41,373 nt of DNA from Bacteroidota bacterium. Lineage in GTDB: Bacteria > Bacteroidota > Bacteroidia > Chitinophagales > Chitinophagaceae. The stretch covers positions 1 through 41,373 of the forward strand of contig JAKQJH010000383.1 in the NCBI GenBank assembly GCA_029561255.1. Direction: 5' to 3'. The position numbers were made by a program, and so were the translations under genes. The notes beneath the pieces were generated by a model. That model had not been told where the DNA came from and did not search any database. It saw nothing but the letters and a program-made list of their open reading frames with translations. Below, piece by piece: positions 7,801 through 38,796 of this stretch; within the stretch, counting starts at the first letter, position 1; each line of letters begins with the position of its first letter.

Positions 7801-7916
7801 TCTCTTTCCTCAGTCTCAAAGTAGCGCTCATCACGCAGCCCGCAGGAAGTAAGACAAACGGAAGTGAACTGCATAGTGGCAAGGATAAGCGCCAGGCTTA
7901 ATAAACGGTTCTTCAT
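4860..7916 (-). CDS. Asp-box (BNR/VPS10-like) beta-propeller protein with lipobox and T9SS domain
   Basis: A 1018-residue exported protein. The signal ends in LTSC (cysteine 25), a lipobox, followed by a very acidic stretch at about 29-50. Residues 100-810 carry at least nine Asp-boxes, for example RSADAGLTW, KSTDSGVTW, RSTDGGTTF, VSNDAGVTF and VSADRGANW, the hallmark of sialidase, sortilin and GH74-type propellers. The catalytic residues of a glycosidase cannot be assigned, so an enzyme function is not claimed. Around 830-925 is the recurring Fn3-like domain, and the last 80 residues are a T9SS sorting domain (LGNPFSQS, IPAGVYVARF). A lipobox together with a T9SS domain is unusual. It lies 81 bases behind the GEVED gene and ends at a strong terminator. 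Confidence 0.87.
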   Translation of the reverse strand: MKNRLLSLALILATMQFTSVCLTSCGLRDERYFETEERENEEEEENEEEEQNGADKQLSAWFQSKGYPDASNLTQKYAAAWEEFLELKKRSPFQQYATRLQGMGSWSYVGPKAFGGRILCLAINPQVNAAGQRTIFAGSAGGGIWKTYVSGIGASAWQPVITNTAVLGVSSMVYHPTDTSIILAGTGESYRIENYSSSPYSSNQVSNIGRNAWKARGTYGVGILRSADAGLTWTQVLIKSQSDLFGIQKIKYHPTITGTVFACATDGLYKSTDSGVTWSLIWSGTYCSDIVINPSNVNQIVIAAGNVTNSPKGVWRSTDGGTTFTQVTAGGFPTAAQFKGSTNFTILGTNTIIASVGVGDIDNNGTYNEREVYRSDDFGVNWASVSNSTHAKWQSWFAHGVTAFPGSTNKIFMFGVKKHVLVMSGTPATTGTLTNIATGAASSSYLVDGSQEGSTTYVHDDVHDVQFVPGSTTTAYWATDGGVYRTTNANASPITGMTFVSCNGGLYAQQFYPTIAQSQTTANLAIGGLQDNGVIRYNGTGWARVIGGDGTTVSFKPDNELIVLGSNDTRGVNRSTNGGTSFPTSVMSYLGNIPNGDDDRTAFCAPVVVAPSNTNRWYVGSDNIHVSNDAGVTFSGDVAGVPGTSYIEAFHKPAIAIGVSYSNADVLYVSVSPFAQNLLTDGLYYNPPATIRKSTNGGGGFTTVTTGLPDRVVTDFAVSPTNHDSVFVTLSGFGTTHIYVTGNGGSTWSPRGSGLPDVPFNTILIDPANPQILYAGCDFGVYVSADRGANWYDFNNNLWDATLVMDLAITPGNKLRAATHGKGVFETARWDGMVTLPVNFISFEGANAGKNNNLKWVVDQESNLSRYEVQRSTDGFSFAAVKQVTARNSAIQTTYSILDPLGQNPAPVYYYRIRSIDQDGSYTYSEIVAIRINDGQKFEVLGNPFSQSITIRYTTSRTGKLSIALTDLQGRIVRREELIAATGTGTYSINNLTGIPAGVYVARFDMEGKSIAIKVIKQ

Positions 7917-7952
7917 AAATTGGATTTAAGTAGTGGTTATAGGATCGTTGGT

Positions 7953-7982
7953 CATACGGGGAGTTTCAGCAGTCCCCGTATG
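7953..7982 (-). other. Intercistronic hairpin between two T9SS cargo genes
   Basis: A perfect 10-bp inverted repeat (7953-7962 with 7973-7982) and a ten-base loop lie in the 81-base gap. The minus strand has no T tract after it, so it is not a standard terminator. It may stabilise or attenuate the message. Confidence 0.5.
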
Positions 7983-7997
7983 TTCAGTATTCGCTCT

Positions 7998-10604: not shown

Positions 10605-10727
10605 GATACAGATTTTGGTACTGGTTTTCTGGTATTGGATTATAATTAGAAAAAACTTCGGTGTTTACTTATACGATTGAAATAATACTCTTATAACACC
10701 TAAATATTTTCCTGTGCTAAATTCAGA

Positions 10728-10739
10728 GTATTTACTTAA
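10728..10739. promoter_or_regulatory. 12-base motif shared with the 17939 site
   Basis: GTATTTACTTAA occurs here and again at 17939-17950, each time upstream of a minus-strand secreted-protein gene. The rest of the 305-base gap 10605-10909 is AT-rich, with no gene seen and no convincing TAnnTTTG box near the 10604 start. Confidence 0.25.
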
Positions 10740-10851
10740 AAAGAAAACTGAAACGTAGGTTTTCACGAAGGATCAGGTACTAATCCTGAATGCGGAAAGG
10801 AGTTTTACGATATTATAAAGCAAAAGTATCGGGAAAGTACCCGGGGAGAAT

Positions 10852-10872
10852 AAAAAAACCCGCTTTTGCGGG
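10852..10872 (-). terminator. Intrinsic terminator after the 10910 gene
   Basis: A five-base GC stem (10859-10863 with 10868-10872) and a TTTT loop. On the minus strand it is followed by seven T. It lies 38 bases after the stop of the 1434-residue protein gene. Confidence 0.8.
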
Positions 10873-10909
10873 CTTTAAAATCAAATTATAAAAAATAAGG
10901 CATGAAATT

Positions 10910-13900
10910 TTATTGCAGCTTATTGAATTTACGGGTCAGTATCATTCCGTTGTATTGTACACGAAAAATATACATGCCTTCCGGGAGATTTACGGCATGG
11001 TTCAGTTCAATTGTAGTATTCCCTTTTACCAAAACCTGGCTGGCGCGGAAATGTATACGGCCATTCAGATCAATAATATCCATGACGGCCCGGGCATTGC
11101 TGGATACACTTATACCAACCGTCATACTGCTTCTGACCGGGTTCGGAAACAGGGAAATACTATCATTCGGCTTGTTAACCTGTAAAACCGGAATTACTGC
11201 AGAATAATTTACTTTACCTGAAGTCAATACCGTTTTCAACCTATAATAAAGTACCGGTAGTTGAGTGTTCAGGGACCTGTCAATTACCTGGTAGGCCTCT
11301 TCTTCATGGATGACTGATCGTGCTTCTACTCTTTGCACACTATCAAAATGCTGACGATCAGCACTTCGCTCAACAATAAAGTAAGCTGGCTGCTGACTGC
11401 ATCGCACTGTCCAGTCAACCCTGACATACTGCCCATCGGCATTGGCTTCAAAGCGGGTATACTCACAATTCAGCAAATAAGGTATACAACGCCAGTCGCG
11501 CTCTGACGCACAGCCATAAGCAATAATTGTATGCTGAACCGTTGTAATTGAACCCGGGGTTGGATCACCAGACGTGGTACCACCATCGCCCATATAAGCA
11601 GAGGTTGATTCGGCGTTACTGTTGTTGTTATCAAACCGGTCATCGAGCCCATCCCCATCTGTATCCACACCGGTCAGGGTAACAAGGTCATCCACAATTC
11701 CGTTGAGGTTCAGGTCATTTCCTTCTATAATATCAATTAGTCCGTCGCCATCCGTATCACTGTCGAGGTAATCGGGTGTGCCATCCCCATCTATATCGCA
11801 AGGGTGGATGCCATCTCCGCCAAAACCAACATAATTATCATAGCGGTCATCAATTCCATCTGCATCGCTATCTGTAGCAGCCGGCAAAAGATAACCTGCT
11901 GTTGTTAATCCTTCCACATTATCCGGAATACCATCATCGTCTGAATCGATGTCATACAGATCGGCCCTGCCTGTTGCATCGCGATTCGCCAAAACCATGG
12001 ATCCGAGAGCAGCCAGCACAGTGTTTCGTCCGTCAGCATTTACCGCACCATCCACCCGTCCGTCCCAGTTTGCATCCGTCAACTGGGTTTCCTTTACATC
12101 AGTAATTCCATCACCATCACTGTCCAGGTCATACGGATTGGGCTTGCTGTCATTGTCCATATTCTTATAAGGCCAGCTGTCTGCACGTCCATTGTTGTCT
12201 GCATCAGTACCGGTACGTAACAAAGCAGCAGCAGCATTTTCTGCAACTGTATCATTCCCCACATCGCCATCATAGCTATCGGTTATTCCATCGCCATCGG
12301 TATCTGTAAATACACTGACTTTAGCGCTGTTAGATGCATCGGCTCCATATACTTCAATAATATCCGGTATACCATCATTGTCACTATCCAGGTCAAGGTA
12401 ATTCGGCAACCCATCCCCATCGGTATCCAGTGCACCGAGGCCTGTTGATGAACCGCTGACACCTGTATTATTGGCATCCACGTTCTGGGAAAAGCCATCA
12501 TTGTCCGTATCAGTATAGTTATCAATCCGTCCGTCGCCGTTCGCATCCACCCCAAAACTCTCCACGGTATCCGGAATTCCGTCATTGTCACTATCCAGAT
12601 CAAGATGGTTAGGAATGCCATCCAGGTCCTTATCCATATTATCATTCACGCCGTCGCCATTGCTGTCCACATAACCGGAAAAATCCGGATCATAAAAATT
12701 GAGGATACCATCGTTGTCACTATCAGCACTTGGATCAAAATTATCATTGAACCCATCTGCATTATTATCGGTAAAGCCCGGATACTGCGCATCATTCCAG
12801 TTGGGTGTACCATCACTGTCATGATCCTGTAGTGCCACCGGGTTATTAAGTTCGAGGTAATCGGGCAATCCGTCGTTGTCATCATCGATATCCGGACAAG
12901 CCAGAATATAGACATTCAGTTGCAATGTATCATCACAGGAACCCGGGCCATCATACCAGGCATAGATCACACGTGTTGTGGTAATTGCCACTGCCGGATC
13001 GTAAAGTGTACCTGCACCAAAGGGCATTCCGGTATAAAAACGATAGCCGCCATACCTGCCTGCGGGGAGGGTTACTGAAGAAGCCGGACAACTATTTGTC
13101 AGGATCGTATCGCCCAATGGCATACAGGAACCAGTGAGTGTTGCGGTTACCGGACCCAGTACTGTACAACCACTCACATCCACACCACTTGAATCGTACA
13201 ATGAAATACCGGATAAAGCGCCGGTATAGTTGATCCGGGCACTGTTGCTGATTGTAGAAGAACAGGAAACCAGTAAGCAGGAAGAAGGCGTATAAACATC
13301 AAATTCAATATAACCGCTTGCTCCGATAGCGAGTGCACCACCGGTACTTCCATTGGCCCCTGTACCGAGTCGGAAGAGTACCCGGTTATTGGTGAAATCA
13401 TACTCTGCCTGATCGTCGGACAATGCATCCGTTTTACTAACCCCATTTATTACAAGACTGCCCGGAACATAAGTGGTGCCTGTGGGGATATTATCATAAA
13501 TAACCGACTGATTACTGGCGTCATTACCATTATTGTGATAGTCTACCCGGTAACGGATCACATCACCCGGCACCAGGCTGCCGCCGTTCACATCAGTAAG
13601 CGATTTCACCAGGTTGAAAGAAGGTGTGTATTGTGAAATGGCGGTGGTTGCCACCTGCAACATATAGTTTTCAGAAGGCGAACTAAAACGGATACTGGCA
13701 GAGGTCTGACTGTTTCCTAAAACCGCATTCAGTGTATTGGGCACGATCAGGATATCAGCATCATAACCTAAAGTATTATTATGAGCCGGACTCCGGGTGG
13801 TAACCACGGCTCCATATTTGGAGATCGTACTGTTCCACATATCGTTCAGGTTCGCAGTGGCATTGGGTGTAAGACTGGTGTACACACCCACCAACGGATT

Positions 13901-15214
13901 GGAGTTCTGTTTGAAAGAATATTCATCGGTCGATACCCTGTCCCCGTCAAATACCACGGCCCCCAGTTCACAACTCACCGGTCCGGAAGGAGGTGTAAGG
14001 AAACCATCTATCGGGATATGCAGGGCCGGGTCGCCGCCATTCATGATGGCTGAGCCATCGAATATGGTAAGGTTACGCAGAATGGTTGAAGGGTCAGAAT
14101 AGGCAATAACAATTGTCCAGCCACCTGCTGCATTCACAATACCGGCCGGGCTGCAGACATTCGCAACGGTGTATGTACCATCAGGACTGGTTGTATTCAT
14201 CAATGCGGTGATATCAACAAAGCAACGGTACCCAGTATGCGGTAATCCGGGAACAAGTGTGTTGTTATGATAATCCGTTTGCGTAGATACCAGATCTGTA
14301 TACGTTGACGAACCGGGCAGTTTCAGTTTGACGTTAGTTTCATTGGTAATCCAGGACACATTGATACCATCTGTACCCTGTGTAGCACCCCAGTAAAGAC
14401 CGGCGAAGAGGACTTGCGAACAGGATGGCAGACTCAGATCGGCAGAGGAACTGTTGAAGATCACGCCATCGGTGCAGGCCAGTTGCAGGTTGAATGACAG
14501 ATCGGAACTGCTTGCATTCGCCTGGTGAATTTCTACCGCAATGGTATTATTGCCCGTAGCAAAATAGGTATTTGCAATACTGAATGTAATAACAGCGTCT
14601 TCAATAGCAGAAGACGCCAGGGTATTGTATGCCACTGCGCCGGCAGGCATATTATTGCGGGCCACTTCCACACCGTTCACATAAACCACATAGCCGTCGT
14701 CACGTTCCACACTGAACTGGTAGGATGTATAAGCCGTGGGAGACGGAATATTAATTGTTTTACGGAAATAACTGGTCAGGTATTTATTACCTGTAGGCAG
14801 GCAAAGTGTACCTCCACCGCCGGAGGGGATACAGGTGGTTTCATCTCCATCGCCATACCCCAGTTCGCCGTTTCCGGATGACCAGGCTGCGTCGTTATAA
14901 CCAAGGTCTTTCCAGCTACCAGCAGGGGCTGCTCCTGCAGAATAATATTTCCAGGATGAACCAAATGGGATCAGCGTATCTGCATCAATATTGATATTGG
15001 CCCCGGTATTCCCGTTATTTACTGCAGAACCACCAGGAGGCGCTTCGGTCGTAGAAACCCCGGAAGAAGTGATGATATTATTGGCAACAAATGTGATATT
15101 ACCGTTCACCGATGAATTAGAATACCGGGGTGTGAACGTTCTCAATACCTGGGCATTTATCCGGGTACTGATGAAACCAGTCAGCAGAAATAATATGATC
15201 AGCTTAAACTTCAT
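10910..15214 (-). CDS. Large secreted protein: jelly-roll, DUF11, thrombospondin-3 repeats, T9SS domain
   Basis: A 1434-residue protein with a signal peptide cut near residue 22. Residues 80-250 are a jelly-roll-like domain (SSWKYYSAG, ELGYGDGDE, RDDGYVVYVNGVEV) nearly repeated in the upstream neighbour. Residues 265-540 have the AGLYWGATQG and GWTIVIAYSDP motifs common in such adhesins. A DUF11-like domain follows (VPGDVIRYRVDYHN). About 785-1195 holds roughly twenty calcium-binding thrombospondin-3 motifs of the form DxDxDGxxD (DTDGDGLPN, DSDNDGIPD). It ends with an Fn3-like domain (YFIVERSADRQHF) and a sorting domain (LFPNPVRSS, LPEGMYIFRV). Six bases separate it from the phosphatase gene, so they form an operon. 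Confidence 0.88.
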   Translation of the reverse strand: MKFKLIILFLLTGFISTRINAQVLRTFTPRYSNSSVNGNITFVANNIITSSGVSTTEAPPGGSAVNNGNTGANINIDADTLIPFGSSWKYYSAGAAPAGSWKDLGYNDAAWSSGNGELGYGDGDETTCIPSGGGGTLCLPTGNKYLTSYFRKTINIPSPTAYTSYQFSVERDDGYVVYVNGVEVARNNMPAGAVAYNTLASSAIEDAVITFSIANTYFATGNNTIAVEIHQANASSSDLSFNLQLACTDGVIFNSSSADLSLPSCSQVLFAGLYWGATQGTDGINVSWITNETNVKLKLPGSSTYTDLVSTQTDYHNNTLVPGLPHTGYRCFVDITALMNTTSPDGTYTVANVCSPAGIVNAAGGWTIVIAYSDPSTILRNLTIFDGSAIMNGGDPALHIPIDGFLTPPSGPVSCELGAVVFDGDRVSTDEYSFKQNSNPLVGVYTSLTPNATANLNDMWNSTISKYGAVVTTRSPAHNNTLGYDADILIVPNTLNAVLGNSQTSASIRFSSPSENYMLQVATTAISQYTPSFNLVKSLTDVNGGSLVPGDVIRYRVDYHNNGNDASNQSVIYDNIPTGTTYVPGSLVINGVSKTDALSDDQAEYDFTNNRVLFRLGTGANGSTGGALAIGASGYIEFDVYTPSSCLLVSCSSTISNSARINYTGALSGISLYDSSGVDVSGCTVLGPVTATLTGSCMPLGDTILTNSCPASSVTLPAGRYGGYRFYTGMPFGAGTLYDPAVAITTTRVIYAWYDGPGSCDDTLQLNVYILACPDIDDDNDGLPDYLELNNPVALQDHDSDGTPNWNDAQYPGFTDNNADGFNDNFDPSADSDNDGILNFYDPDFSGYVDSNGDGVNDNMDKDLDGIPNHLDLDSDNDGIPDTVESFGVDANGDGRIDNYTDTDNDGFSQNVDANNTGVSGSSTGLGALDTDGDGLPNYLDLDSDNDGIPDIIEVYGADASNSAKVSVFTDTDGDGITDSYDGDVGNDTVAENAAAALLRTGTDADNNGRADSWPYKNMDNDSKPNPYDLDSDGDGITDVKETQLTDANWDGRVDGAVNADGRNTVLAALGSMVLANRDATGRADLYDIDSDDDGIPDNVEGLTTAGYLLPAATDSDADGIDDRYDNYVGFGGDGIHPCDIDGDGTPDYLDSDTDGDGLIDIIEGNDLNLNGIVDDLVTLTGVDTDGDGLDDRFDNNNSNAESTSAYMGDGGTTSGDPTPGSITTVQHTIIAYGCASERDWRCIPYLLNCEYTRFEANADGQYVRVDWTVRCSQQPAYFIVERSADRQHFDSVQRVEARSVIHEEEAYQVIDRSLNTQLPVLYYRLKTVLTSGKVNYSAVIPVLQVNKPNDSISLFPNPVRSSMTVGISVSSNARAVMDIIDLNGRIHFRASQVLVKGNTTIELNHAVNLPEGMYIFRVQYNGMILTRKFNKLQ

Positions 15215-26792: not shown

Positions 26793-28115
26793 TTAATGTT
26801 TTACGATCTTCTGCTGGGCTGTTTGGCCATCACAGCTAACCCGCACAATGTAGAAACCGGGAGCCAGGTTGCTGGTGTTGATTGTCTCTGTCTGGTTGCA
26901 GCCGGTAGTGGCTTTGCGGCTGGCGATCTGTCCATTCGCATTGAACAGTTCGAAAACAGTCTGCTTATTCTGCCAGTTGTTGGGTACAGTTACCCGCAGT
27001 TCATTCATGACCGGATTGGGATAGGTCAGCAGGCTGATACTGTTGGCCTGATCTTTTGCCAGACGGATGATGCGTGTTTCTGAGATTTCACTTTTGCCAT
27101 CAATATCCACTGAACGGAGACGGTAGTAAACCACTGGTACCTGGAAGGAGGCCACATTATCACTATAAGCATAGTTGGCTTTTGTATCGGCTGCACCATA
27201 TGAAAACACCATCGCAGCCTGGGAGAAATTAACACCATCCGTACTGCGCTCGAGTTCAAAATGACTCACGTTGATCTCAGAAGCAGTTTCCCATTTCAGG
27301 TTTACTTTATCCTTAGCTAAAGAGGCGTTGAAAGCCGTCAGCTTAACTGGCAGTGTGCTAATCGGAGCGATGTAAGCAAAATTTTTGAACCATACAGAAT
27401 ACATACGGTTGGCATTGCTGGCAGAACCGGTAGTGGTTACACCGAGGCGGATCACCATCGTACTTGTATTAGTATACTTAACGGTTGTCATGACATCAGT
27501 AGCAGCAGTATCAATATTGTTACGGTCAGACTGTGAGCCCAGGAACTGTTTACCATTCAGTAAAGGCAGATTCAGTGTACCCAACAGATTTGCTACAGTC
27601 AGCTGAGAATTATTCTCCAAAGTATATGATGCACCACCATAGAAGGCATCCCACTCACGCAGGCGGCTGCCATTGCCATCAATATCCAGACCGGTTACAT
27701 GAAACTCACTCATTTGTGCAGGAAGCTTTGTACCCTTGTTTACAAACTGAAACTGGAACTCGATCCACCATGAACCCGCACTGTTGATATTTCCATTGTT
27801 GTAACGGATTTGCGGTTGAAAAGCCTTATTAAAACCATTTCCGGTCAGATCCAGATTGTTGATCACTACCTGCGATGAAGAACGTCCTGTGATGGTCATT
27901 ATAGCATCCATCTGAGGAGTCACATTCGAGAACCGGTATTCTGCTCCATTGGCTGTACCAGTTGCGACTGAAGTAGGCTCAAGGGCAGGATTCTCAAATG
28001 TCATTTCACCGATTGCTTGTGAGGTTTGGGCGGAAGCAGTTGCGGTAGCTGCAGAAATAACAGTCAGCACCAGGAACTGACGGATAGCACGGTTAATGTG
28101 TAAAGTTGTTTTCAT
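26793..28115 (-). CDS. Secreted protein with Fn3-like and T9SS sorting domains
   Basis: A 440-residue protein with a signal peptide cut near residue 29 (ATASAQ). Residues 30-250 form an unrecognised beta-rich domain (EMTFENPALEPTSVATG, WWIEFQFQFVNKG). About 255-350 is the Fn3-like domain (VNLKWETASEINVSHFELERSTDGVNF). The sorting domain starts at about 362 with YPNPVMNE and ends LAPGFYIVRVSCDGQTAQQ. It stands alone between a strong promoter and a terminator, with a leader of about 160 bases. The lack of any enzyme motif suggests a binding or structural role. Confidence 0.85.
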   Translation of the reverse strand: MKTTLHINRAIRQFLVLTVISAATATASAQTSQAIGEMTFENPALEPTSVATGTANGAEYRFSNVTPQMDAIMTITGRSSSQVVINNLDLTGNGFNKAFQPQIRYNNGNINSAGSWWIEFQFQFVNKGTKLPAQMSEFHVTGLDIDGNGSRLREWDAFYGGASYTLENNSQLTVANLLGTLNLPLLNGKQFLGSQSDRNNIDTAATDVMTTVKYTNTSTMVIRLGVTTTGSASNANRMYSVWFKNFAYIAPISTLPVKLTAFNASLAKDKVNLKWETASEINVSHFELERSTDGVNFSQAAMVFSYGAADTKANYAYSDNVASFQVPVVYYRLRSVDIDGKSEISETRIIRLAKDQANSISLLTYPNPVMNELRVTVPNNWQNKQTVFELFNANGQIASRKATTGCNQTETINTSNLAPGFYIVRVSCDGQTAQQKIVKH

Positions 28116-28589: not shown

Positions 28590-31500
28590 TTACTTCATCA
28601 CTTCGAGCCGGCTGGTTTCGCTGTATCCGGCAGCAGGGGCCTTTAACTGAAGGATATACTGGCCGTTTGCCAAACCATTCAACTTCAGTTGTTCTGTTTG
28701 TCCGGCCGCTGCCAGGTAAACACGGGTTACCTGTTGACCATTCAGCGCATAAACCGTTATCGTAACACCTTTCCCAACGATCTGTTCAGGTAAACGTACA
28801 TACACCAATCCGTTGACACTAGGGTTGGGATAAACGAGGAGCGAGTTGCCTTTTTGCAGATATACACTCCTCACTTCGGTGAATTTGTAAGAAGCATCTG
28901 CATCCACCACTCTGATACGGTAAAAGTTGGCTCCTTTTATGGGTGAAAGGTGCAGGTAACTATACTGCTCAGCCCCCGTTGCCGCTACACTACCTAATAC
29001 AGTCCAGTTGCTGGCATCCGAACTATACTCCACGATATAGGCGGCCACCAGTTGTTCTTCTGATACTTTCCATTTGAGCTGTACCGTTTGACCGGCAGGC
29101 ACTGCCGTAAATGCCTGAATAAATACAGGAAGTGTTACGGCATTGAGCAGGCCACCATCAAAAGTGAGATTAGTAGTGGTAGTGCTTACTGTAATTCCAG
29201 GGATGGTAGCTCCGGATACATCGCTGTCCGCTGCATCATCACCGCCAGCGTCCGCTGTGGTAAATGTGACAGCAGCAGGCAGGTTGGTAAACTGCATACT
29301 GTAAGTGCCGGGGGCTACATTAGGGAACTGGTACCAGCCCTGAGCATCTGTTATGGTCGCCGCTACTGCCACGCCAAGGTTATTAAACAAGGTAATCAGC
29401 ACACCGGCAAAGCCGCGCTCATCCGGATCCTGAATACCGTTGCCATTTGAATCGGACCAGATATAGTTACCAATTACAGCTCTGGGTTTAAATAATCCGG
29501 CATCAGCAGAAAGGTCCGTTTCACCGGCACTCAGTGTAATGGTTCCTGTAAGACCTGTCGCCGGGTTGGCATCGCTGTCGAGTGCATCATCGCCACCTGC
29601 ATCATTGGCAGTGAATACAAGTCCGGCTGGCAGGGTACCGAACTCCAACTGATAATCGCCAGGCAGCAGATTACCAAAACGGTATTCACCATTCTGGTCG
29701 GTGATCATACTCGCTACCGGTAAGGCATCATCGCTGTTACCGGCAATACCATCGGGACCGAATCCGGGACGATACACGGTAACGGTAACTCCCGGAACCG
29801 GAGGTTCTGAGCCATCATTATCCTGGATACCATTCCCATCTGTATCAAGCCAAACATAATTTCCAATGACGGCCCTTGTACTGATGAGACCGGCATCCAG
29901 TGTACGGTCATTACGGTTACCAGCATTGAGAGTCACAGTCGTTGTGCGTCCTGTAGCGCGGTTGGCATCACTTCCCGTTGCATCATTAGTAGCGGAAGGA
30001 GTACTGAAATCAAATCCTGCAGGCAGATTCGTAAAGCCCACGCTATAACTTCCATCAGCAAGACCGCTGAAAAGGTATTCACCATTTTCATTCGTAACGG
30101 TTGTTGCCACCGCTGTACCGCTTCCGTTGTATAAAGTAACCAGTATACCGGTCATCCCCTGTTCACCAGCTTGTAATCCGTCATTATTGGCATCAAACCA
30201 TACCAGGTTGCCCAATGAGTTGGTACCTGCGGGAGGCACAAGTCCTAGATCCACTGACATATTATCCTCCCCTTCTGTGAGACTCAATACGGCCGTTCTC
30301 GAAGCACCGGCAGGTGCTCCACCTGTACCAATGGCACCACCATCGCTGTCACGGGTATCATCAGCACCGGCATTTTGTGTAGTTGCAGTATAAGAGGCCG
30401 GCAATGTGCTGAATTGAACAGCATAATTACCCGCAGGCAGATCGGTAAAAATATATTCTCCTTTTGCATTGGTGATCGTGCTGCGGGTACTGCCATCGTC
30501 CCCGTTACCCACAATACCATCCGCTCCAGCATCCAGCAGACTGACTGTTACACCGGGCACGCCTGTTTCACCGGCATCCTGCACACCGGACGTTCCGCCT
30601 GTAATATCATACCATACTTTATTTCCTATGGAACCAAGTCCTGCTGCAATACCTGCATATAAACCGGCATCCACATCTGTTTCATTTTCGCCTGCACTGA
30701 GGCTGATCAGCGCTGTTCTACCCGTTCCGGGGTTTACATCACTGTTCGTGGCATTTGCATCATCGGTAGACCAGATGGGAATAAAGCTATAACCTGCAGG
30801 AAGATTGCTGAAACCAACACTATAACTTCCGGCAGCAAGTTGTACAAACTGATAATTGCCGTTTGCATCTGTCGTAGTACTTGCAACTGCTGTACCGCTG
30901 CTATTATACAAAGTAACGGTAACACCAGCGATGCCTGGCTCGGTGGCATCCTGTACACCATCCGCATCGGCATCAAACCAGACTTTATCACCAATCCTTG
31001 AAGTTCCGGCAGGAGAAGACAGCACAAGTCCCGCATCGAGTGAGAGATTGCGCTGACCGGGAAGTAATCGATAAGCAATGGTACGCCCTGTTGTGGCATC
31101 GGCATCACTATCAACTGCATCATCGGCACCCTGATCGGCAGTAGTACGGGTATAGCCGGCAGGCAACACAAACTCCACCTGGTACAGACTGCCCGTACTT
31201 ACGGCGGCAGTAAGATTGTTAAAAATATAATGCCCGTATGCGTCCGAAACAGTTGTACTGAATGGCGTGGCAGCTTCAGCTCCACTGATCGATCCGTCGC
31301 CATTACTATCACGGTAAAGATTAACCGTAACTCCGGCAATTCCGGGTTCAGTGGCATCCTGTACTCCGGCCGTACCACCCGGGATATCCAGCCAAACACG
31401 GTCGCCGATAACGGCACTGGCTGCGGGTTGAGTAACAAAACCAGCATCGATTCCTTTTACCTGGCTGCCGGCGGTTCCACTACTCACCAGTCCGGTTTTT

Positions 31501-34500
31501 CCGGTACTGCTACTAAAATCACTGTTAACGGTATTATTCGCCCCGGTTGTTCCGCTGCTGCTGGTCAGCAACAGGCCTGCAGGCTGTGTGATACCCAGTA
31601 CATAATCAGTAGAAGCGGGAAGGCCTGTAAAGTTAAACTGACCATTTGCATCGGAAACAGTTGTTGCAATAACAGTTACCCCGTCTGAAGCATAAAGCGT
31701 AATGGTCACACCACTAAGACCGGGCTCAGTCCCGTTCTGAGAACCATTTCCATCGAGGTCGAGCCAGATACGATCTCCGATACTATTGGTCAGCGAAGGT
31801 GTATAAATAATACCTGCATCAATCTGTTGTTGATTTTCAGCAGCAGATAAGGTAATCGCAGTAGTCTTTCCGGTGCTGCTGCTCACATCACTGTTGGTGC
31901 CATCTGCTTCGCTGGTACCTGTGCTGCTGGTAAACTGGTAATTCACCGGTAAGGTTACACCAATGATATAATTACCTGCCGCGAGCTGGTCGAAATAATA
32001 ACTGCCATATGCGTCTGTGGTGGTGGTGGCCAATACGGTTGTACCATCGCTTGCATAAAGGGTCACGGTTATGCCGGCCACGCCGGGTTCGCCGGTATCC
32101 TGCACGCCGTCCTGATCATCATCGCGCCAGACTTTATCCCCTACCCTTGCCAGGGGGGTGAATCCAAAATCAAGATCATGGTTATTTTGTCCGGCAGCAG
32201 CGATCGTCAGACTGATCATGGGAATATTACCACTGCTGAGTGATGCGTCGTTATCGCTAAGGTCCGCTGCCCCTGCACATAATTTATCGGTTACAGATAA
32301 CCGGTAGTTAGCCAGATCGCCGGTACCGGCGCCGCCGGTCCAGTCGGCACTGCCCACCCGTATATTATAGGGTATACCCGGTTGTGGCCCTGCCTGATTA
32401 CCGCCTGTAGTTGGATCTCCATCTGTAACATTGCCTGTATTAAAGTACCATTCACCCGAACCATTGGTAGTGGTGGTGCCCAGCAATTGATCATCGCCGG
32501 TACCCGGCAGCCCATCCACCCCGTTACTATATAATTCAAGGGTGACATTTGCCAATCCGCTTTCCCCGGCATTCTGTATGCCATCGCCATTCGCATCATT
32601 CCATAAGCGGTTACCCAATTCCGTTGGTGCTACCGCACTCAGCAGTTCAATATCACCAAGCCCATTGGCCTTACCTGTTGCGCCGACTGCAGGTGCGGGG
32701 AATGTGCCTGCTCCGGCACCGGCAAACATTTCATAGTCCCGGCCATTGTCACCACCGGCACTGCCAAACCAACTGATACCGGATGACCAGGCACGGAGCG
32801 GGTCCATGGTGGTTACCACCACACTGTCTGTTCCTTTGATTATCGCCAGCGCTCCACTCACCGTATTCAGGTGAAATGTGCCCACAGTAGCGCCGGTATT
32901 CGCATTATACACTTCATCCCTGTAATAAAACTCCCCGTTATTGGTGGTATAATTGCTCGGACCATCGCCATTATTGGCACCCGCCGTAGCCACTTTGGGA
33001 CTGGAAGGTCCCTCTTTCGCATTTTGTTCTAATTCAAAAACGCAACTGCTGCTGTTATAATAAGCCCGGTACATATCACCCATGGCCTGACCGGCGAATC
33101 GCACAGTACCATTGAGGCCGCTCTGATCATAACCCGACTGATCACCAAAACGGTCGCGGAAACCGAGTATCATCGTTCCATCACTGTCGAACTCAATATC
33201 GCTGAACATGGGTTGCTGGTATTGCGAAAAACCTGGTGCTGTACCTGTCCAGGGAGAAGGCAGCGTGTTCGTCCAGGGTCTCCAGGTTTCAGATAAACCG
33301 TCTCCGTTAGTACCCCGGTTGAAGTTGAGCGGAAATTGCAAAACAGGAGTAGAGGTAAATGTACCGGAGGTGGGATTGAATTCCCACACATAGGCCCAGA
33401 GATCGGTATATTCCGGATTACCGGTATTATTATCTTGTGTACTTACGGCTCCGGTTCCCTCACCAGTTGTAACAGATCCGATATATAATTTACCTCTTGA
33501 GTATTTCAGGGCAAACGGACGTTGCAATCCGCGGGTGCCATCATAAAAATTAGTTCCATCACTGGCACCGGTGTATGTAGCTGCTGCAGACGGAATGCCG
33601 GATGTGGAACGTAATGGCGGATTGGGCAGGCTCCAACTGTTCACTACCGTTGCAGATGTCGGATTCTTTACATTGTTCAGCTGAAGCTGATATAACTTAC
33701 GATCATAGAAATTGGTTACGAACAAAAACTGCCCGTCATCGCTGATCTCCATATCACCCAGACTCACTTTACCTACCTGACCAAAAGCAGCCGGGTCATT
33801 GCTGCGGGTTGTACTATCATTGGGTAAGCCCCTGTTCACATTGGTTCCGATTACACCAAGACCATTGGCCGGATAAGAAACAGTAGCCCCATATCCGGTT
33901 CCGGTAAGTGTATATGAAGTACCGGCGCCATAAGCTGGAGACCCGGTTGAGTTATGTGTGGGATAACCCAGGGCATCCAGACTGGAAAAGTAGGATGCTG
34001 CACCTGTTCCCGCTGTCAGATTGGGATTAATCATATAAATGGCACCCGGTGCATTATTAAATGTGCCATTTGCCGGCCCCAGACCGTTATGACGTTTTAA
34101 AAAAGCAGAAGTAAATACACGGTCCGCTTGTTTACTGTATGCAATACCATAACAGGTGCCGATCTGCGCATTGGTGGCGAGTAAACCAGAAGCAGGTAAA
34201 GTGGTTTGTCCCTTAACGGTGTAACTCATTTTATAAAAAACACCACCGGCTGCTGATGTTCCCGAACCGGTTGCATTACCTGAATGATAACGGTTGGTAA
34301 ATAAAAAAGCAGCGGTGAAGGGAGCAGCGGTTGAGAGATAGTCATTCGGATCGTTGATTGCAAAGTTGATATTAACCGCGCCGGCACCGGCTGTCAGAAA
34401 ACGAACTGCAGTACCATGCGTGGCACCGGATCCGGATGCAAAATCAAATGCGGAATTCACGAGACAGGATCCGGAAGACGGGATCGTAAACTCAAGACGG

Positions 34501-34763
34501 ATCGCTGTACCTGACGGAATTTGTCCGGCTGTAAATGAATAGGCGCCAACACTACTGGTTGTGGCAGATGCGAGCAACACTTCAGCTGCATTGTATGCCC
34601 GAACTACCACACCTTGCACCAGTGGCTCTGTATAAGCTGTCGCGGCCTGTCTTGTGCCATTTCCATTATAATCTCTGAAAACAATGCCCGAAACCTGGGC
34701 CGATACAACTTGATGCAGGAATACAGAGGCTACTAAAAGCAGCAGATAGTTGGTTTTATTCAT
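28590..34763 (-). CDS. Giant SdrD-B repeat adhesin-like protein with T9SS sorting domain
   Basis: A 2057-residue secreted protein. The signal peptide ends near residue 22 (VVSAQ), followed by one SdrD-B-like unit (VSGIVFRDYNGNGTRQ). Residues 140-710 look propeller-like (MEISDDGQFLFVTNFYD, FALKYSRGKLYIGS, SDIEFDSDGTMILGF). From 714 to about 1865 come nine further SdrD-B units of about 120 residues, with consensus IGDxVWxDxDxDGVQDxxEPGIAGVTV; the acidic loops probably bind calcium. Then follow the Fn3-like domain (LKWKVSEEQLVAAYIVEYSSD) and a sorting domain (VYPNPSVNG). It probably forms a long rigid surface stalk. Start: ATG at 34763, eight bases from a large inverted repeat. Confidence 0.9.
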   Translation of the reverse strand: MNKTNYLLLLVASVFLHQVVSAQVSGIVFRDYNGNGTRQAATAYTEPLVQGVVVRAYNAAEVLLASATTSSVGAYSFTAGQIPSGTAIRLEFTIPSSGSCLVNSAFDFASGSGATHGTAVRFLTAGAGAVNINFAINDPNDYLSTAAPFTAAFLFTNRYHSGNATGSGTSAAGGVFYKMSYTVKGQTTLPASGLLATNAQIGTCYGIAYSKQADRVFTSAFLKRHNGLGPANGTFNNAPGAIYMINPNLTAGTGAASYFSSLDALGYPTHNSTGSPAYGAGTSYTLTGTGYGATVSYPANGLGVIGTNVNRGLPNDSTTRSNDPAAFGQVGKVSLGDMEISDDGQFLFVTNFYDRKLYQLQLNNVKNPTSATVVNSWSLPNPPLRSTSGIPSAAATYTGASDGTNFYDGTRGLQRPFALKYSRGKLYIGSVTTGEGTGAVSTQDNNTGNPEYTDLWAYVWEFNPTSGTFTSTPVLQFPLNFNRGTNGDGLSETWRPWTNTLPSPWTGTAPGFSQYQQPMFSDIEFDSDGTMILGFRDRFGDQSGYDQSGLNGTVRFAGQAMGDMYRAYYNSSSCVFELEQNAKEGPSSPKVATAGANNGDGPSNYTTNNGEFYYRDEVYNANTGATVGTFHLNTVSGALAIIKGTDSVVVTTMDPLRAWSSGISWFGSAGGDNGRDYEMFAGAGAGTFPAPAVGATGKANGLGDIELLSAVAPTELGNRLWNDANGDGIQNAGESGLANVTLELYSNGVDGLPGTGDDQLLGTTTTNGSGEWYFNTGNVTDGDPTTGGNQAGPQPGIPYNIRVGSADWTGGAGTGDLANYRLSVTDKLCAGAADLSDNDASLSSGNIPMISLTIAAAGQNNHDLDFGFTPLARVGDKVWRDDDQDGVQDTGEPGVAGITVTLYASDGTTVLATTTTDAYGSYYFDQLAAGNYIIGVTLPVNYQFTSSTGTSEADGTNSDVSSSTGKTTAITLSAAENQQQIDAGIIYTPSLTNSIGDRIWLDLDGNGSQNGTEPGLSGVTITLYASDGVTVIATTVSDANGQFNFTGLPASTDYVLGITQPAGLLLTSSSGTTGANNTVNSDFSSSTGKTGLVSSGTAGSQVKGIDAGFVTQPAASAVIGDRVWLDIPGGTAGVQDATEPGIAGVTVNLYRDSNGDGSISGAEAATPFSTTVSDAYGHYIFNNLTAAVSTGSLYQVEFVLPAGYTRTTADQGADDAVDSDADATTGRTIAYRLLPGQRNLSLDAGLVLSSPAGTSRIGDKVWFDADADGVQDATEPGIAGVTVTLYNSSGTAVASTTTDANGNYQFVQLAAGSYSVGFSNLPAGYSFIPIWSTDDANATNSDVNPGTGRTALISLSAGENETDVDAGLYAGIAAGLGSIGNKVWYDITGGTSGVQDAGETGVPGVTVSLLDAGADGIVGNGDDGSTRSTITNAKGEYIFTDLPAGNYAVQFSTLPASYTATTQNAGADDTRDSDGGAIGTGGAPAGASRTAVLSLTEGEDNMSVDLGLVPPAGTNSLGNLVWFDANNDGLQAGEQGMTGILVTLYNGSGTAVATTVTNENGEYLFSGLADGSYSVGFTNLPAGFDFSTPSATNDATGSDANRATGRTTTVTLNAGNRNDRTLDAGLISTRAVIGNYVWLDTDGNGIQDNDGSEPPVPGVTVTVYRPGFGPDGIAGNSDDALPVASMITDQNGEYRFGNLLPGDYQLEFGTLPAGLVFTANDAGGDDALDSDANPATGLTGTITLSAGETDLSADAGLFKPRAVIGNYIWSDSNGNGIQDPDERGFAGVLITLFNNLGVAVAATITDAQGWYQFPNVAPGTYSMQFTNLPAAVTFTTADAGGDDAADSDVSGATIPGITVSTTTTNLTFDGGLLNAVTLPVFIQAFTAVPAGQTVQLKWKVSEEQLVAAYIVEYSSDASNWTVLGSVAATGAEQYSYLHLSPIKGANFYRIRVVDADASYKFTEVRSVYLQKGNSLLVYPNPSVNGLVYVRLPEQIVGKGVTITVYALNGQQVTRVYLAAAGQTEQLKLNGLANGQYILQLKAPAAGYSETSRLEVMK

Positions 34764-34770
34764 ATGAAAT

Positions 34771-34842
34771 TGATATAACTAAGTTTACTAATTTTACACC
34801 TAAATAAATATAGGTGTAAAATTAGTAAACTTAGTTATATCA
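34771..34842. repeat. Perfect 32-bp inverted repeat with 8-base loop
   Basis: The arms 34771-34802 and 34811-34842 are exact reverse complements, very AT-rich, with loop AATAAATA. The repeat fills most of the space between the lipoprotein stop (34880) and the SdrD-B ATG (34763). There is no T tract after it on the minus strand. It could be a terminator or attenuator, a message-stability hairpin, a dimer-binding site, or a small mobile element remnant. Confidence 0.9.
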
Positions 34843-34879: not shown

Positions 34880-35788
34880 CTATTTACTGATCCAACTTTC
34901 GGATCCGGCGTCATACAGAAAAGAATAGACAGTCTCTTTTTTCTCCCGTTGTGGTATGAGATTATAGTTGAAAGACATCCCGTAAACAAACAAATTACCC
35001 ATATTGTCTGTCCGGATCCGCCGCACTTTATCATCTCCCGATGGACCCATCCCCGCGATAGAAAATACCTTTTCCGGCTTACCGGAAAACCGGCCCTTAC
35101 TATCCAGCTCAACCGAAAACACATCACTGCTTCGCCCGGTACCATAATACAGACAACGCTTGCCGGTGATATAGGAAATGCCCATCCCCATTGCATCTGT
35201 GGCCATAAGCTGATCGGTAATTTTTCCGGTCACTGCGTCGATCGCGTATATACCTCCCCGTTCATATAACCGGTCACTGCCAGCCAGGGTAGATGCATAT
35301 AAAGTATTAGTCTCACACAAAAAGGCCAGCCCGATGATCCCAAACGGGTGCTGAAGACTGGTATCAGGCATCGGCAATGCAATAAACGGATCCATTACCC
35401 CTGTTGAACCATTTACTTTCCAGATCGTGTTTTGTCCGGCTATCGGATTATTGAGCACATTAATAAATGGAGCTGGTGCTGTAAAGAGATTGCCTTTATT
35501 GTCCAGTTGTATCGGAGCCAGCCAGCCTGCTTTTCGCCAGGATGGATGCTGATAAGATTTTTCAACCGGTGAAGCCGGGTTGCCCTTTTGCTTTGATTGA
35601 TTTAGCACCAGTCCCATCGTCCGGATATCGGATGTACTGAAATAGGCAAATTGCGGCTCATAGCCGAGGCTTTCCACAAAGGGCGGATTCACGGAACAGC
35701 TATTGACTGAAAATTCCGTCTCTTCCTCTTTACAGGATGAAAAAAAGAAGACCAACAACAGCAGGGATACTAAACAGTTCCTTTTCAT
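34880..35788 (-). CDS. Surface lipoprotein with propeller-like repeats
   Basis: A 302-residue lipoprotein: signal ending FFSSC (cysteine 19), followed at once by KEEE, which resembles the lipoprotein export signal that sends Bacteroidota lipoproteins to the cell surface. The mature part has repeats typical of NHL/SMP-30-type propellers: LDNKGNLFTAP, LAFLCETNTLYAST, GGIYAIDAVTGKIT, ISYITGKRCLYYGTG and RTDNMGNLFVYG. It starts three bases after the amine-oxidase-like gene, so the two belong to one operon. A partner role is plausible; in methylamine dehydrogenase the subunit bound to the quinone protein is also a propeller, though that comparison is loose. Confidence 0.8.
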   Translation of the reverse strand: MKRNCLVSLLLLVFFFSSCKEEETEFSVNSCSVNPPFVESLGYEPQFAYFSTSDIRTMGLVLNQSKQKGNPASPVEKSYQHPSWRKAGWLAPIQLDNKGNLFTAPAPFINVLNNPIAGQNTIWKVNGSTGVMDPFIALPMPDTSLQHPFGIIGLAFLCETNTLYASTLAGSDRLYERGGIYAIDAVTGKITDQLMATDAMGMGISYITGKRCLYYGTGRSSDVFSVELDSKGRFSGKPEKVFSIAGMGPSGDDKVRRIRTDNMGNLFVYGMSFNYNLIPQREKKETVYSFLYDAGSESWISK

Positions 35789-35791
35789 GTA

Positions 35792-37606
35792 TTATTGTTT
35801 ATACGGAATGAACATAGGGCCGGCAAAACAAGGATAGGTCCTCGTTTGCCACACGCCATTCTCCAATACATTTTCCGCCCAGCAATATTCATTTCCCTTC
35901 CGGTCATCATTGCGCATTTGTGCCACATACCAAAGCACCAGTGATCCCTGACTGATATCTTCCGGTGCCGGTTCAATAAACTTATCCGGACCCTGGTGAT
36001 AATCCGTATTACAACAGGGACCAATCGTAACCAGGTCGTTCTCGCCTTCATCGCGGCCAGCCGTATGCTTTGTAACATATACATAGGCAAAATCACCCCT
36101 GCCTCCATCAGCAAACTGCCCCTTGCCCGGTTCCATATAATAACCAGCCGCTCCTTCTCCGATTCTGTACTGATAACCTTCCGGAGTATACTGCGTCAGA
36201 CTACCCTGCAACTGCCATTGTTCTTTCTGCCATTGCAGCCAGCTATTCTCCTTATACTCATAAAAGCTATTGCGTGCTCCTTCAAAAGCGATCCGGAATA
36301 CCGGCCGGTAGGTACCTGTATTCCCACAGCCCCTGCCGATACTGGCACAGGACACACGGAACCGGCCATCCAGGTAAAATTCATAGCGTTGGCGGTAATT
36401 ATAATTACAGGGTGTAGGCCAACCCTCACTGCGGAATGTTTGCTCCAGCACAAAGCCCACTACTTTATTCTGCTCATCTTTCAAGGCCGCCACCTGCGGC
36501 ACTTCCCAGGCTACCACAGCGGCCTGGCTGAAATAAGGACAACCTACCGCATCACTGTAACCAAACCCATCCGTACCACTATAACTCACATGCCAGTCTA
36601 CGAGTTTCGCACTGCGTAAAACCGGTTTCCCGTTATATTTTACTTCACTGATACGCAATCCGTCACTCCCGGTCAGCATATACTTCATTTCCCAGCCATC
36701 TTTCTTTAATGGCTGTTCTACTTCACAATAACAGGAAGTGATTTTATCATCCTGGAGTTTGCGTTCAGTTACCAACGGTACAGCGGCACCGGGCTCTCCA
36801 ACCGTGGTCCAGCGGATACCAACCAGGCGGTGATCAGTGAGGTCCACTATGGCCCAAAGCGCTTTATCACCCTTCACAAAAGTGGGTGCCACACAAAGAT
36901 GCCGGCTGCGTTCACAACGGCTACGGTTAAGCGCAGTTTTGGTACTGGCCATCAGGGCTGCGGTTTCACCGGGTTTAAAGCCAAGCGCTTCCTGTACCTC
37001 CGGTGACTCCACCGCAATTTTTACCGCCAGGTCGCGTAGACGTCCTGAAATGTCCGGTTGTACTTCTTCCTGGTGATAACCGGCCAGTACCCGTTGTTGT
37101 GTTATATCGACCATAGCCACAGAAGTCAGGTTCAGGGCATAATTGTACATTTCAACCCGGTACACGGATGATAAGATATAAGGTTCCTTTACAGTAACCA
37201 GGTCGCTTTGCCGCGCCGGATACACTCCGAAAATTTCATTGCGGAAAGGCTGACGGGTCTGCGGATCCAAAACATGTCTGGTGAAATCCGTATTGCGGAG
37301 CGCAATCATTTCAGCCAATTGTTGCTGACTGTTCATACTATCCCGGCAAAGCAGCACCGGAATCGGCTGAGCCAATGCCAGGGTAATCTCCTTCACCCGT
37401 TCCTGGATAAAGGGCTGTTTGCTGAAACTGTCAATGGGTAACAAAACCGCATTCTTTGCATCATCATTATAAGCAGGCCATTCTTTGGAAGCCGGTCCGG
37501 CATTTCCGCAGGCATACAATAACAGCAGGGCCATATACAGTACAACAGGCAACAGTATCAACCGATGCAAACCGGTCTTACCGGAACGGATTAGCATATT
37601 GTTCAT
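35792..37606 (-). CDS. Copper-amine-oxidase-like lipoprotein lacking copper ligands
   Basis: A 604-residue protein with a lipobox-like end to its signal (LYAC, cysteine 33). Residues 145-210 resemble the amine oxidase N3 domain (VAMVDITQQRVLAGYHQEE, SPEVQEALG). Residues 310-604 resemble a shortened catalytic domain: GLRISEVKYNGKPVL (316-330), the TPQ-site motif TPCNYNY (398-404) followed by RYEFYLDGRF, YVYVTKH (508-514) and LVLWYV (556-561). The candidate cofactor tyrosine is Y402. The normal His-x-His copper pair is absent (no HxH occurs anywhere), and the third histidine region after LVLWY reads AQMRNDD. The catalytic aspartate is unclear (D337, D346 or D352). There are thirteen cysteines besides the lipid one. 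It overlaps the di-heme gene by 29 bases. Confidence 0.8.
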   Translation of the reverse strand: MNNMLIRSGKTGLHRLILLPVVLYMALLLLYACGNAGPASKEWPAYNDDAKNAVLLPIDSFSKQPFIQERVKEITLALAQPIPVLLCRDSMNSQQQLAEMIALRNTDFTRHVLDPQTRQPFRNEIFGVYPARQSDLVTVKEPYILSSVYRVEMYNYALNLTSVAMVDITQQRVLAGYHQEEVQPDISGRLRDLAVKIAVESPEVQEALGFKPGETAALMASTKTALNRSRCERSRHLCVAPTFVKGDKALWAIVDLTDHRLVGIRWTTVGEPGAAVPLVTERKLQDDKITSCYCEVEQPLKKDGWEMKYMLTGSDGLRISEVKYNGKPVLRSAKLVDWHVSYSGTDGFGYSDAVGCPYFSQAAVVAWEVPQVAALKDEQNKVVGFVLEQTFRSEGWPTPCNYNYRQRYEFYLDGRFRVSCASIGRGCGNTGTYRPVFRIAFEGARNSFYEYKENSWLQWQKEQWQLQGSLTQYTPEGYQYRIGEGAAGYYMEPGKGQFADGGRGDFAYVYVTKHTAGRDEGENDLVTIGPCCNTDYHQGPDKFIEPAPEDISQGSLVLWYVAQMRNDDRKGNEYCWAENVLENGVWQTRTYPCFAGPMFIPYKQ

Positions 37607-38747
37607 TTTTTATCAAAGCAGTGTCGGACAGACTGTAAAGAAATGAAATCAGGTCTTCCCGTTCAGCTGCGGTTAATGTAAATCCTTTTATCAGTTCATG
37701 CTTATAGGGGTTTGACCGGCCATCTCCCCCGGGTTGTAACCGCCCTCCCCGCTCATACACCCTGATCACATCTGCGAGTGACAAAGCACTGCCATCGTGA
37801 TAATAAGGCGCGGTAAAAGCCAGGTTACGCAATGTCGGCACCCTGAACTTTCCTTCATCGGCCACATTACCGGTTAATTGGTACAATCCCCGGTCAGCTG
37901 CAGGATAACCACCCTTGCCGCCAATATTATACAATCCCGTATTAAAATAAAAATCCGTTTTGCCAGACGCCTCTTTTAGTACTGGCGTTGAGAAATTAAT
38001 ACCTGCATGACAGGAATAACATTGCAAGGCAGGTGAATAAAACAACTGCCTGCCTCTTTTCGCTGCGGCACTAAGCGGGTACTGACTGCTGTCACGCAGG
38101 TACCTGTCCCATGGCGCATCTGCACTTATAATTGTTTTTACAAATACGGCTATTGACTGCCGGATATGCTCCCAGCTGACCGGATCAGCTGCGTCAGGAA
38201 AAGCAGCCGCGAACAAACCAGGGTACCGGGTATCTTCCCGCAAACGGGAAAGTATATGCGCTTCTTTTCCTTTTACACCCATTTCCGGCGGGTGTTCATT
38301 CAATAAGGGTAACAACATCTGGGCTTCGGGAAAATGAAGCGTACTGTCAGCCCCCGTCAGGTACCGGTTATACACAAGGTTGATCAGGGGACGACTGTTG
38401 CGCTGATGCAGGTCACCATACACTCCGGCAGAGCGGGTATAGTTATCAGTAAAAGAATACTCCTGTGCATGGCAACTGGCACAGGCTTTTGTATTATTAG
38501 CCGATAAACGATTATCATAAAACAGGTAACGGCCCAGTACCCTTTTTTCTTCACTGTATGGATTTGCGGGGTCGCTATAAACACTATCCCTGTGTTGTTC
38601 CGGTAACCAGGACAAGAAGTCTTTAACCCGCGACTGTTTTGTCTGGCAACTGTTCAGCCCGGCAATACAACATGCAAACAGCAGAACAATCGTACCTGAA
38701 ACAGTACGTATCAGTTTTACAGCAAAAAGTGATTTCACTTCTTTCAT
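37578..38747 (-). CDS. MauG / cytochrome c peroxidase-like di-heme lipoprotein
   Basis: A 389-residue protein taken from the ATG at 38747; a TTG three codons upstream is less likely. The signal ends in LNSC (cysteine 34), so it is a lipoprotein. Two heme-c sites are present: CASCH (89-93) and CYSCH (243-247). Family motifs include GRYLFYDNRLSANNTKACASCH-type spacing, PPEMGVKG and VPTLRNLAFTAPYYHDGS. There is no methionine anywhere after the second heme, where bacterial cytochrome c peroxidases place their axial Met; Y331 in VIRVYERGG is at about the position of the MauG tyrosine ligand (84 residues after the heme histidine; 89 in MauG). It heads the lipoprotein operon and overlaps the amine-oxidase-like gene. 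Confidence 0.9.
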   Translation of the reverse strand: MKEVKSLFAVKLIRTVSGTIVLLFACCIAGLNSCQTKQSRVKDFLSWLPEQHRDSVYSDPANPYSEEKRVLGRYLFYDNRLSANNTKACASCHAQEYSFTDNYTRSAGVYGDLHQRNSRPLINLVYNRYLTGADSTLHFPEAQMLLPLLNEHPPEMGVKGKEAHILSRLREDTRYPGLFAAAFPDAADPVSWEHIRQSIAVFVKTIISADAPWDRYLRDSSQYPLSAAAKRGRQLFYSPALQCYSCHAGINFSTPVLKEASGKTDFYFNTGLYNIGGKGGYPAADRGLYQLTGNVADEGKFRVPTLRNLAFTAPYYHDGSALSLADVIRVYERGGRLQPGGDGRSNPYKHELIKGFTLTAAEREDLISFLYSLSDTALIKNEQYANPFR

Positions 38748-38761
38748 CCGGTTCAATCATT

Positions 38762-38796
38762 AAAAAAAGGGCTCTACCCGCAGGTACAGCCCTTTT
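38762..38796 (-). terminator. Intrinsic terminator of the ATP synthase operon
   Basis: A 14-base stem with one C-C mismatch (38765-38778 with 38783-38796), loop CGCA and seven T on the minus strand, 20 bases after the atpA stop. Confidence 0.9.

Follow-up and report, generated by a model that had tools for sequence, protein, structure and literature searches.

A di-heme protein of the MbnH family is encoded beside an amine-oxidase-fold protein without copper histidines in Bacteroidota

The di-heme enzyme MbnH reportedly oxidises a tryptophan of its partner protein MbnP to kynurenine. A tryptophan-to-kynurenine change has also been described for the surface-associated protein MopE, and the pairing of a di-heme enzyme with a surface partner has a precedent there (PMC3621798). 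We describe a locus from a Chitinophagaceae genome (Bacteroidota bacterium, GenBank assembly GCA_029561255.1) in which a member of the MbnH family adjoins a different kind of protein. The window analysed is a stretch of 41,373 nucleotides, contig JAKQJH010000383.1, and the four genes considered encode a di-heme protein (H), an amine-oxidase-fold protein (A), a beta-propeller protein (P) and a giant surface protein (S) (Table 1). An earlier note, made from the DNA sequence alone, had proposed that H makes a protein-derived cofactor in A. The pairing of A with H recurs in many bacteria; no paper on such a pair was found among the openly licensed PMC papers.

Against the Pfam family of copper amine oxidases (PF01179), A scores 25.8 bits, under the cut-off of 27, and 50 of 60 relatives of A match this family at an E-value of 0.001 or better. 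PDB chains searched with the A sequence gave chance matches only. The AlphaFold2 (AF2) model of A has a predicted local distance difference test score (pLDDT) of 84.0, and when it was searched with Foldseek, the best 50 of the 157 matches at E 0.001 or better were all copper amine oxidases (best E-value 5.5e-20), with template-modelling scores of about 0.42-0.48 over the multi-domain chain for the 50 matches listed. Alignment of an A profile by hhalign with Escherichia coli TynA and five copper amine oxidases of Bacteroidota extended over the full length (probability 89; E-value 2.4e-7, a single-pair value). The amine-oxidase likeness that the earlier note had seen in A is thus borne out by the model and its structural matches.

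That note had also singled out a T-x-x-N-Y-N-Y motif and the absence of an HxH pair, and both observations hold. The motif of A reads T-P-C-N-Y402-N-Y, with Y402 in the place of the topaquinone tyrosine. Three MAFFT runs concur on Y402, N401, Y342 (equivalent to TynA Y399) and N566 (opposite H719 of the TynA precursor), and in all three the HxH of TynA stays unaligned. Among 91 distinct relatives of A, the set left after removal of 11 duplicates and shorter fragments, Y402 is a Tyr without exception and the Asn preceding it is kept in 83; Y402, Y404, Y342, Y350, D352, H339, C356, C400, C531 and C532 are all invariant, and 10 Cys columns reach at least 85/91. The region where the HxH would be expected holds Y433 (91/91), R434 (90/91) and P435 (91/91), position 566 is Asn in 88 relatives, and an HxH occurs in 4 of the 91 but never within the catalytic part. 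The retained pocket residues, the unaligned HxH and the Asn in place of the third copper histidine together show that A has kept the tyrosine pocket and lost the copper site, and a self-made topaquinone is therefore unlikely. The catalytic-base Asp of TynA, D413, falls opposite a gap in A; the invariant D352 is close by and could replace it.

H scores 387.1 bits against TIGR04039, the NCBIfam model of the MbnH family (cut-off 362.85), and 131.1 bits against the MauG equivalog TIGR03791 (cut-off 443.85), and by the latter score MauG proper is ruled out. It matches PF03150 (CCP_MauG) with 136 bits and carries two c-type heme motifs, C89-x-x-C92-H93 and C243-x-x-C246-H247. Its closest PDB relative is 6e1c (E-value 5.8e-77), which we take to be MbnH. 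The earlier description of H as a di-heme protein like MauG or cytochrome c peroxidase was accordingly right in family and heme motifs, and has to be narrowed to the MbnH type. TIGR04039 is matched at E 1e-10 or better by all 19 A-linked H proteins of set A4, and some A-linked relatives lie slightly under its cut-off (e.g. 357.8 and 356.9 bits). The gene neighbour of H is A, not MbnP; the MbnP-like gene of this genome is on another contig (C376), where a second, more usual pair was observed, the MbnP-like L011 (401-1231) beside an MbnH-like fragment, L016 (25-246). The L011 protein has a Y-W-G-W stretch and scores 41.8 bits, under a cut-off of 140.

In phylogenetic trees the A-linked H proteins form a branch of their own (support 0.65 to 0.77), next to which stands a canonical MbnH encoded beside an MbnP-like WxW protein (L114). 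Seven unlinked H copies (L126, L130, L132, L167, L173, L174, L177), some of them from genomes with A at a contig end, fall within the linked branch (support 0.77 and 0.79). One A-adjacent di-heme protein (L027) lies outside the branch and was excluded from the branch counts. Five di-heme proteins of Chloroflexota (L115-L119), whose long open reading frames span 755 to 790 residues, also lie outside it. In alignments with peroxidases of the PDB, Tyr331 of H occupies the place of the last aligned Met of the peroxidase, its axial ligand; 53 of 67 members of the H branch have Tyr here. As a separate observation, Y103 of H (window about 38439-38441) is Tyr in all 65 branch members with a letter at this position and is variable in other di-heme proteins.

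A is sporadic, being found in 9 of 195 genomes of the family, 16 of 298 of the order and 5 of 395 of the phylum, each count including the window's own genome. No relative of A was encoded in plasmid records. A profile was built from 19 A-linked H proteins, and membership of the H branch was set at 268 bits. Scores of at least 268 bits were obtained in 12 of the 16 order genomes with A and in none of the 282 without it (Fisher 2e-18, uncorrected for relatedness), the searches for A and H being taken as drawing the same 298 genomes. In 5 of these 12 genomes H is unlinked, on another contig in four (G245, G286, G319, G364) and 193 kb away in the fifth (G416). H is thus specifically linked to A in Bacteroidota, also where the genes are unlinked, and the co-occurrence on which the earlier note depended is confirmed for this phylum.

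When each species was represented by one genome, 189 relatives of A were found. The top 80, which come chiefly from Bacteroidota and Chloroflexota, were fetched, and the neighbourhood was counted in the 57 whose contig extends for 2.5 kb or more on each side of A. P was found near A in 54 of these loci, a di-heme gene in 38 and both in 37, and the arrangement is therefore not due to chance. The order H-A-P occurs in 21 loci, A has both P and H on its upstream side in 15, and A-P without H is seen in 17; A-P-H and H-A without P occur once each, and neither partner is present in two. Where a di-heme gene adjoins A, it lies within about 100 bases of A in 36 of 38 loci.

P is a beta-propeller according to its AF2 model (mean pLDDT 90.3), and its best Foldseek match is a propeller lactonase (E-value 5.1e-7). 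Lactonase, Drp35, DFPase and PON types all rank higher than aromatic amine dehydrogenase (rank 36, E-value 1.2e-4). The propeller predicted from the sequence is therefore borne out by the model, while its suggested likeness to the propeller of methylamine dehydrogenase is not favoured, lactonase-type propellers being structurally nearer.

S consists of an N-terminal region of about 750 residues, SdrD_B repeats (PF17210, 792 bits) and a type IX secretion tail (PF18962, 39.2 bits; TIGR04183). Pfam scans gave no family for the N-terminal region, either in S or in L182 and L187. This region is spread across Bacteroidota and Chloroflexota and is present in all 16 order genomes that have A and in 62 of the 282 that lack it (Fisher 1.4e-10). 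It was also found in 27 of 30 further chosen genomes with A, including 15 of 15 from Chloroflexota (all with A); the three without a match are two Dyadobacter and one Saprospiraceae. Within the fetched flanks, SdrD_B or the N-terminal region of S is present at 33 of the 57 A loci. The distribution of S is thus wider than that of A, and A is mostly accompanied by S. P and S are steadier partners of A than H is: the core consists of A, P and usually S, and H is an addition of Bacteroidota tied to A.

We tentatively favour a reading, based on these analyses, in which H, A, P and S together would make up a module of the envelope or cell surface. A would be an amine-oxidase-fold protein that has lost its copper site and retained its tyrosine pocket, with P as the propeller encoded beside it. 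A distinct branch of MbnH-type enzymes would serve A in Bacteroidota, H oxidising one or more residues of A as MbnH does with MbnP and as SACCP is proposed to do with MopE; C292, W396, Y402 and others are candidates. The fold, the kept and lost residues of A, the gene neighbourhood and the co-occurrence are shown by the data; that the target of H is A, not P or S, and that its action is the oxidation of a residue, we infer.

Several observations weigh against this reading. Three Herpetosiphon genomes (H. aurantiacus, H. giganteus and H. llansteffanensis) have A and P and no di-heme match, and the H profile found no match in two Chloroflexota drafts (L098, L107) and a draft labelled Burkholderiales (L095), all with A and P; the Herpetosiphon trio, L098 and L107 also lack a TIGR04039 match, L095 having been searched with the H profile only. 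In four of the 16 A-bearing genomes of the order (G281, G301, G394, G409) the di-heme family is represented by other members only. The 268-bit threshold was chosen after the list had been viewed, and the next score, 264 bits, belongs to a genome without A. The H of G416 falls just outside the H branch in the trees (support 0.77 and 0.79), and the Tyr at the axial position is replaced by Phe in 10 of the 67 branch members. None of the Trp and Tyr residues of A is restricted to genomes with H; the best residue is C292, which also marks Bacteroidota. Because A and P occur in the three Herpetosiphon genomes with their conserved residues unchanged and no di-heme match, A does not strictly require H, and as there are genomes with A that lack H, a change made by H cannot be essential to all A proteins.

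The residues of A were compared along the same line. Its invariant residues are identical in the groups with and without H, and Y402 and W396 are conserved equally with and without an adjacent H. Position 292 holds Cys in 60 of the 65 A proteins labelled as having H and in 1 of the 23 labelled as lacking it, a label confounded with phylum (L003, L057 and L082 were left out; L102 and L104 were labelled as lacking H, their genomes not having been searched). The largest differences between the two groups are at C292 and Y473 in A and at Y288 in P, and all three follow phylum. A search in A and P for a conserved Trp or Tyr present only with H gave no clean candidate, and the parity of Cys in A, considered as a sign of a free Cys, was mixed.

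It is unlikely, but worth weighing, that A is a catalyst or binder in its own right in all lineages and that H is an electron-transfer partner or consumer of peroxide rather than a maturase. H belongs to the cytochrome c peroxidase superfamily, A, if functional, works without H in Chloroflexota, and the gene overlap couples translation of H and A; on the other hand, the named proteins most closely related to H act on partner proteins (PMC3621798). We likewise consider it unlikely that A is a non-catalytic scaffold which, with P, binds or presents S, and that H modifies S or P. The absence of copper ligands from A and the presence of S as a partner in most lineages, often in the flanks of A, would fit such a role. 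However, a tyrosine pocket retained in 91 of 91 relatives is unusual for a dead fold, S is independent of A in the 62 genomes mentioned above and has no match in three genomes with A, and H adjoins A, not S.

Quite improbable is the model of the earlier note, in which H converts Y402, alone or together with a Cys or Trp close by, to a quinone or cross-link and A becomes a copper-free amine oxidase or dehydrogenase. Y402, the preceding Asn and Y342 are indeed retained despite the loss of the copper ligands, and H is a member of the MauG-like superfamily linked to A, but Y402 is just as invariant in the A proteins of Herpetosiphon. In that genus A and P, unchanged at the invariant positions, occur in three genomes that have no match to a di-heme protein, which argues against placing a cofactor made by heme chemistry at the centre of the system. 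Moreover, MbnH chemistry is known to yield kynurenine rather than a quinone. The evidence lends no support to a heme-made quinone at Y402, though one could exist. Of the interpretation as a whole, the fold of A, its tyrosine, the loss of copper and the link between H and A have stood, while H has been reassigned to the MbnH type and P placed nearer to lactonase-type propellers than to that of methylamine dehydrogenase. Very improbable is the further proposal that A is the first copper-free quinoenzyme of the amine oxidase fold, in which a dedicated MbnH-branch enzyme of Bacteroidota would turn Y402, perhaps with C292 or W396, into a quinone or cross-link, and A would use this cofactor on the SdrD_B protein at the cell surface, oxidising or cross-linking lysines, for example; lineages without H would then need another route to the cofactor.

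On the minus strand the order is the ATP synthase alpha gene, a hairpin, H, A, P, an inverted repeat and S. The hairpin is probably a terminator, and the inverted repeat may be a terminator or an operator. The gene boundaries given earlier for H, A and P are correct, as are the 29-base overlap of H with A and the 3-base gap between A and P. All three had been called lipoproteins: by eye, each has a lipobox-like Cys and may be one, but this Cys is not conserved (C33 of A is Cys in 62 of 91 relatives). Elsewhere in the window, several more large genes, at 4860-15214 and 26793-28115, encode type IX secretion tails or a sortilin-like repeat.

Table 1. Features of the locus, in window coordinates
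Feature	Position	Strand	Description
H	37578..38747	minus	MbnH-family di-heme protein, 389 aa, two CxxCH
A	35792..37606	minus	copper-amine-oxidase-fold protein without copper histidines, 604 aa
P	34880..35788	minus	beta-propeller protein, lactonase-like, 302 aa
S	28590..34763	minus	giant surface protein, 2057 aa
C292 codon of A	36731..36733	minus	oxidisable residue best tracking H
Y402 codon of A	36401..36403	minus	aligned with TynA Y496 (precursor) by hhalign and three MAFFT runs
Y433-R434-P435 codons of A	36302..36310	minus	region where the copper-ligand HxH is expected
N566 codon of A	35909..35911	minus	place of third copper histidine (TynA H719 precursor)
Inverted repeat between P and S	34771..34842		35-nt arms, 97% complementary, 2 nt between arms
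Hairpin between ATP synthase alpha gene and H	38765..38796		14-nt arms, 93% complementary, 4-nt spacer

The locus is a conserved instance of an amine-oxidase fold that has lost copper, keeps the tyrosine that copper normally converts, and is encoded beside a member of a residue-oxidising enzyme family. It lets one ask whether a di-heme enzyme replaces copper in the making of a protein cofactor, with the Herpetosiphon proteins as natural controls without H, and it connects enzymes of the MbnH type with a partner that is not MbnP.

Among known systems, MbnH with MbnP (TIGR04039 and TIGR04052), SACCP with MopE, and CorB with CorA resemble this one in that a MauG-like di-heme enzyme is encoded beside an exported partner. 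In contrast to MbnP and MopE, the partner of H is an amine-oxidase-fold protein, and H forms its own branch. With the copper amine oxidases, A shares the overall fold, the topaquinone tyrosine, the preceding Asn and the equivalent of TynA Y399; it differs in lacking the HxH and the third copper His, in scoring under the Pfam cut-off and in its ten conserved Cys columns. MauG and methylamine dehydrogenase share with this locus the di-heme superfamily and a nearby propeller protein, but H scores far under the MauG cut-off and P is nearest to lactonase-type propellers.

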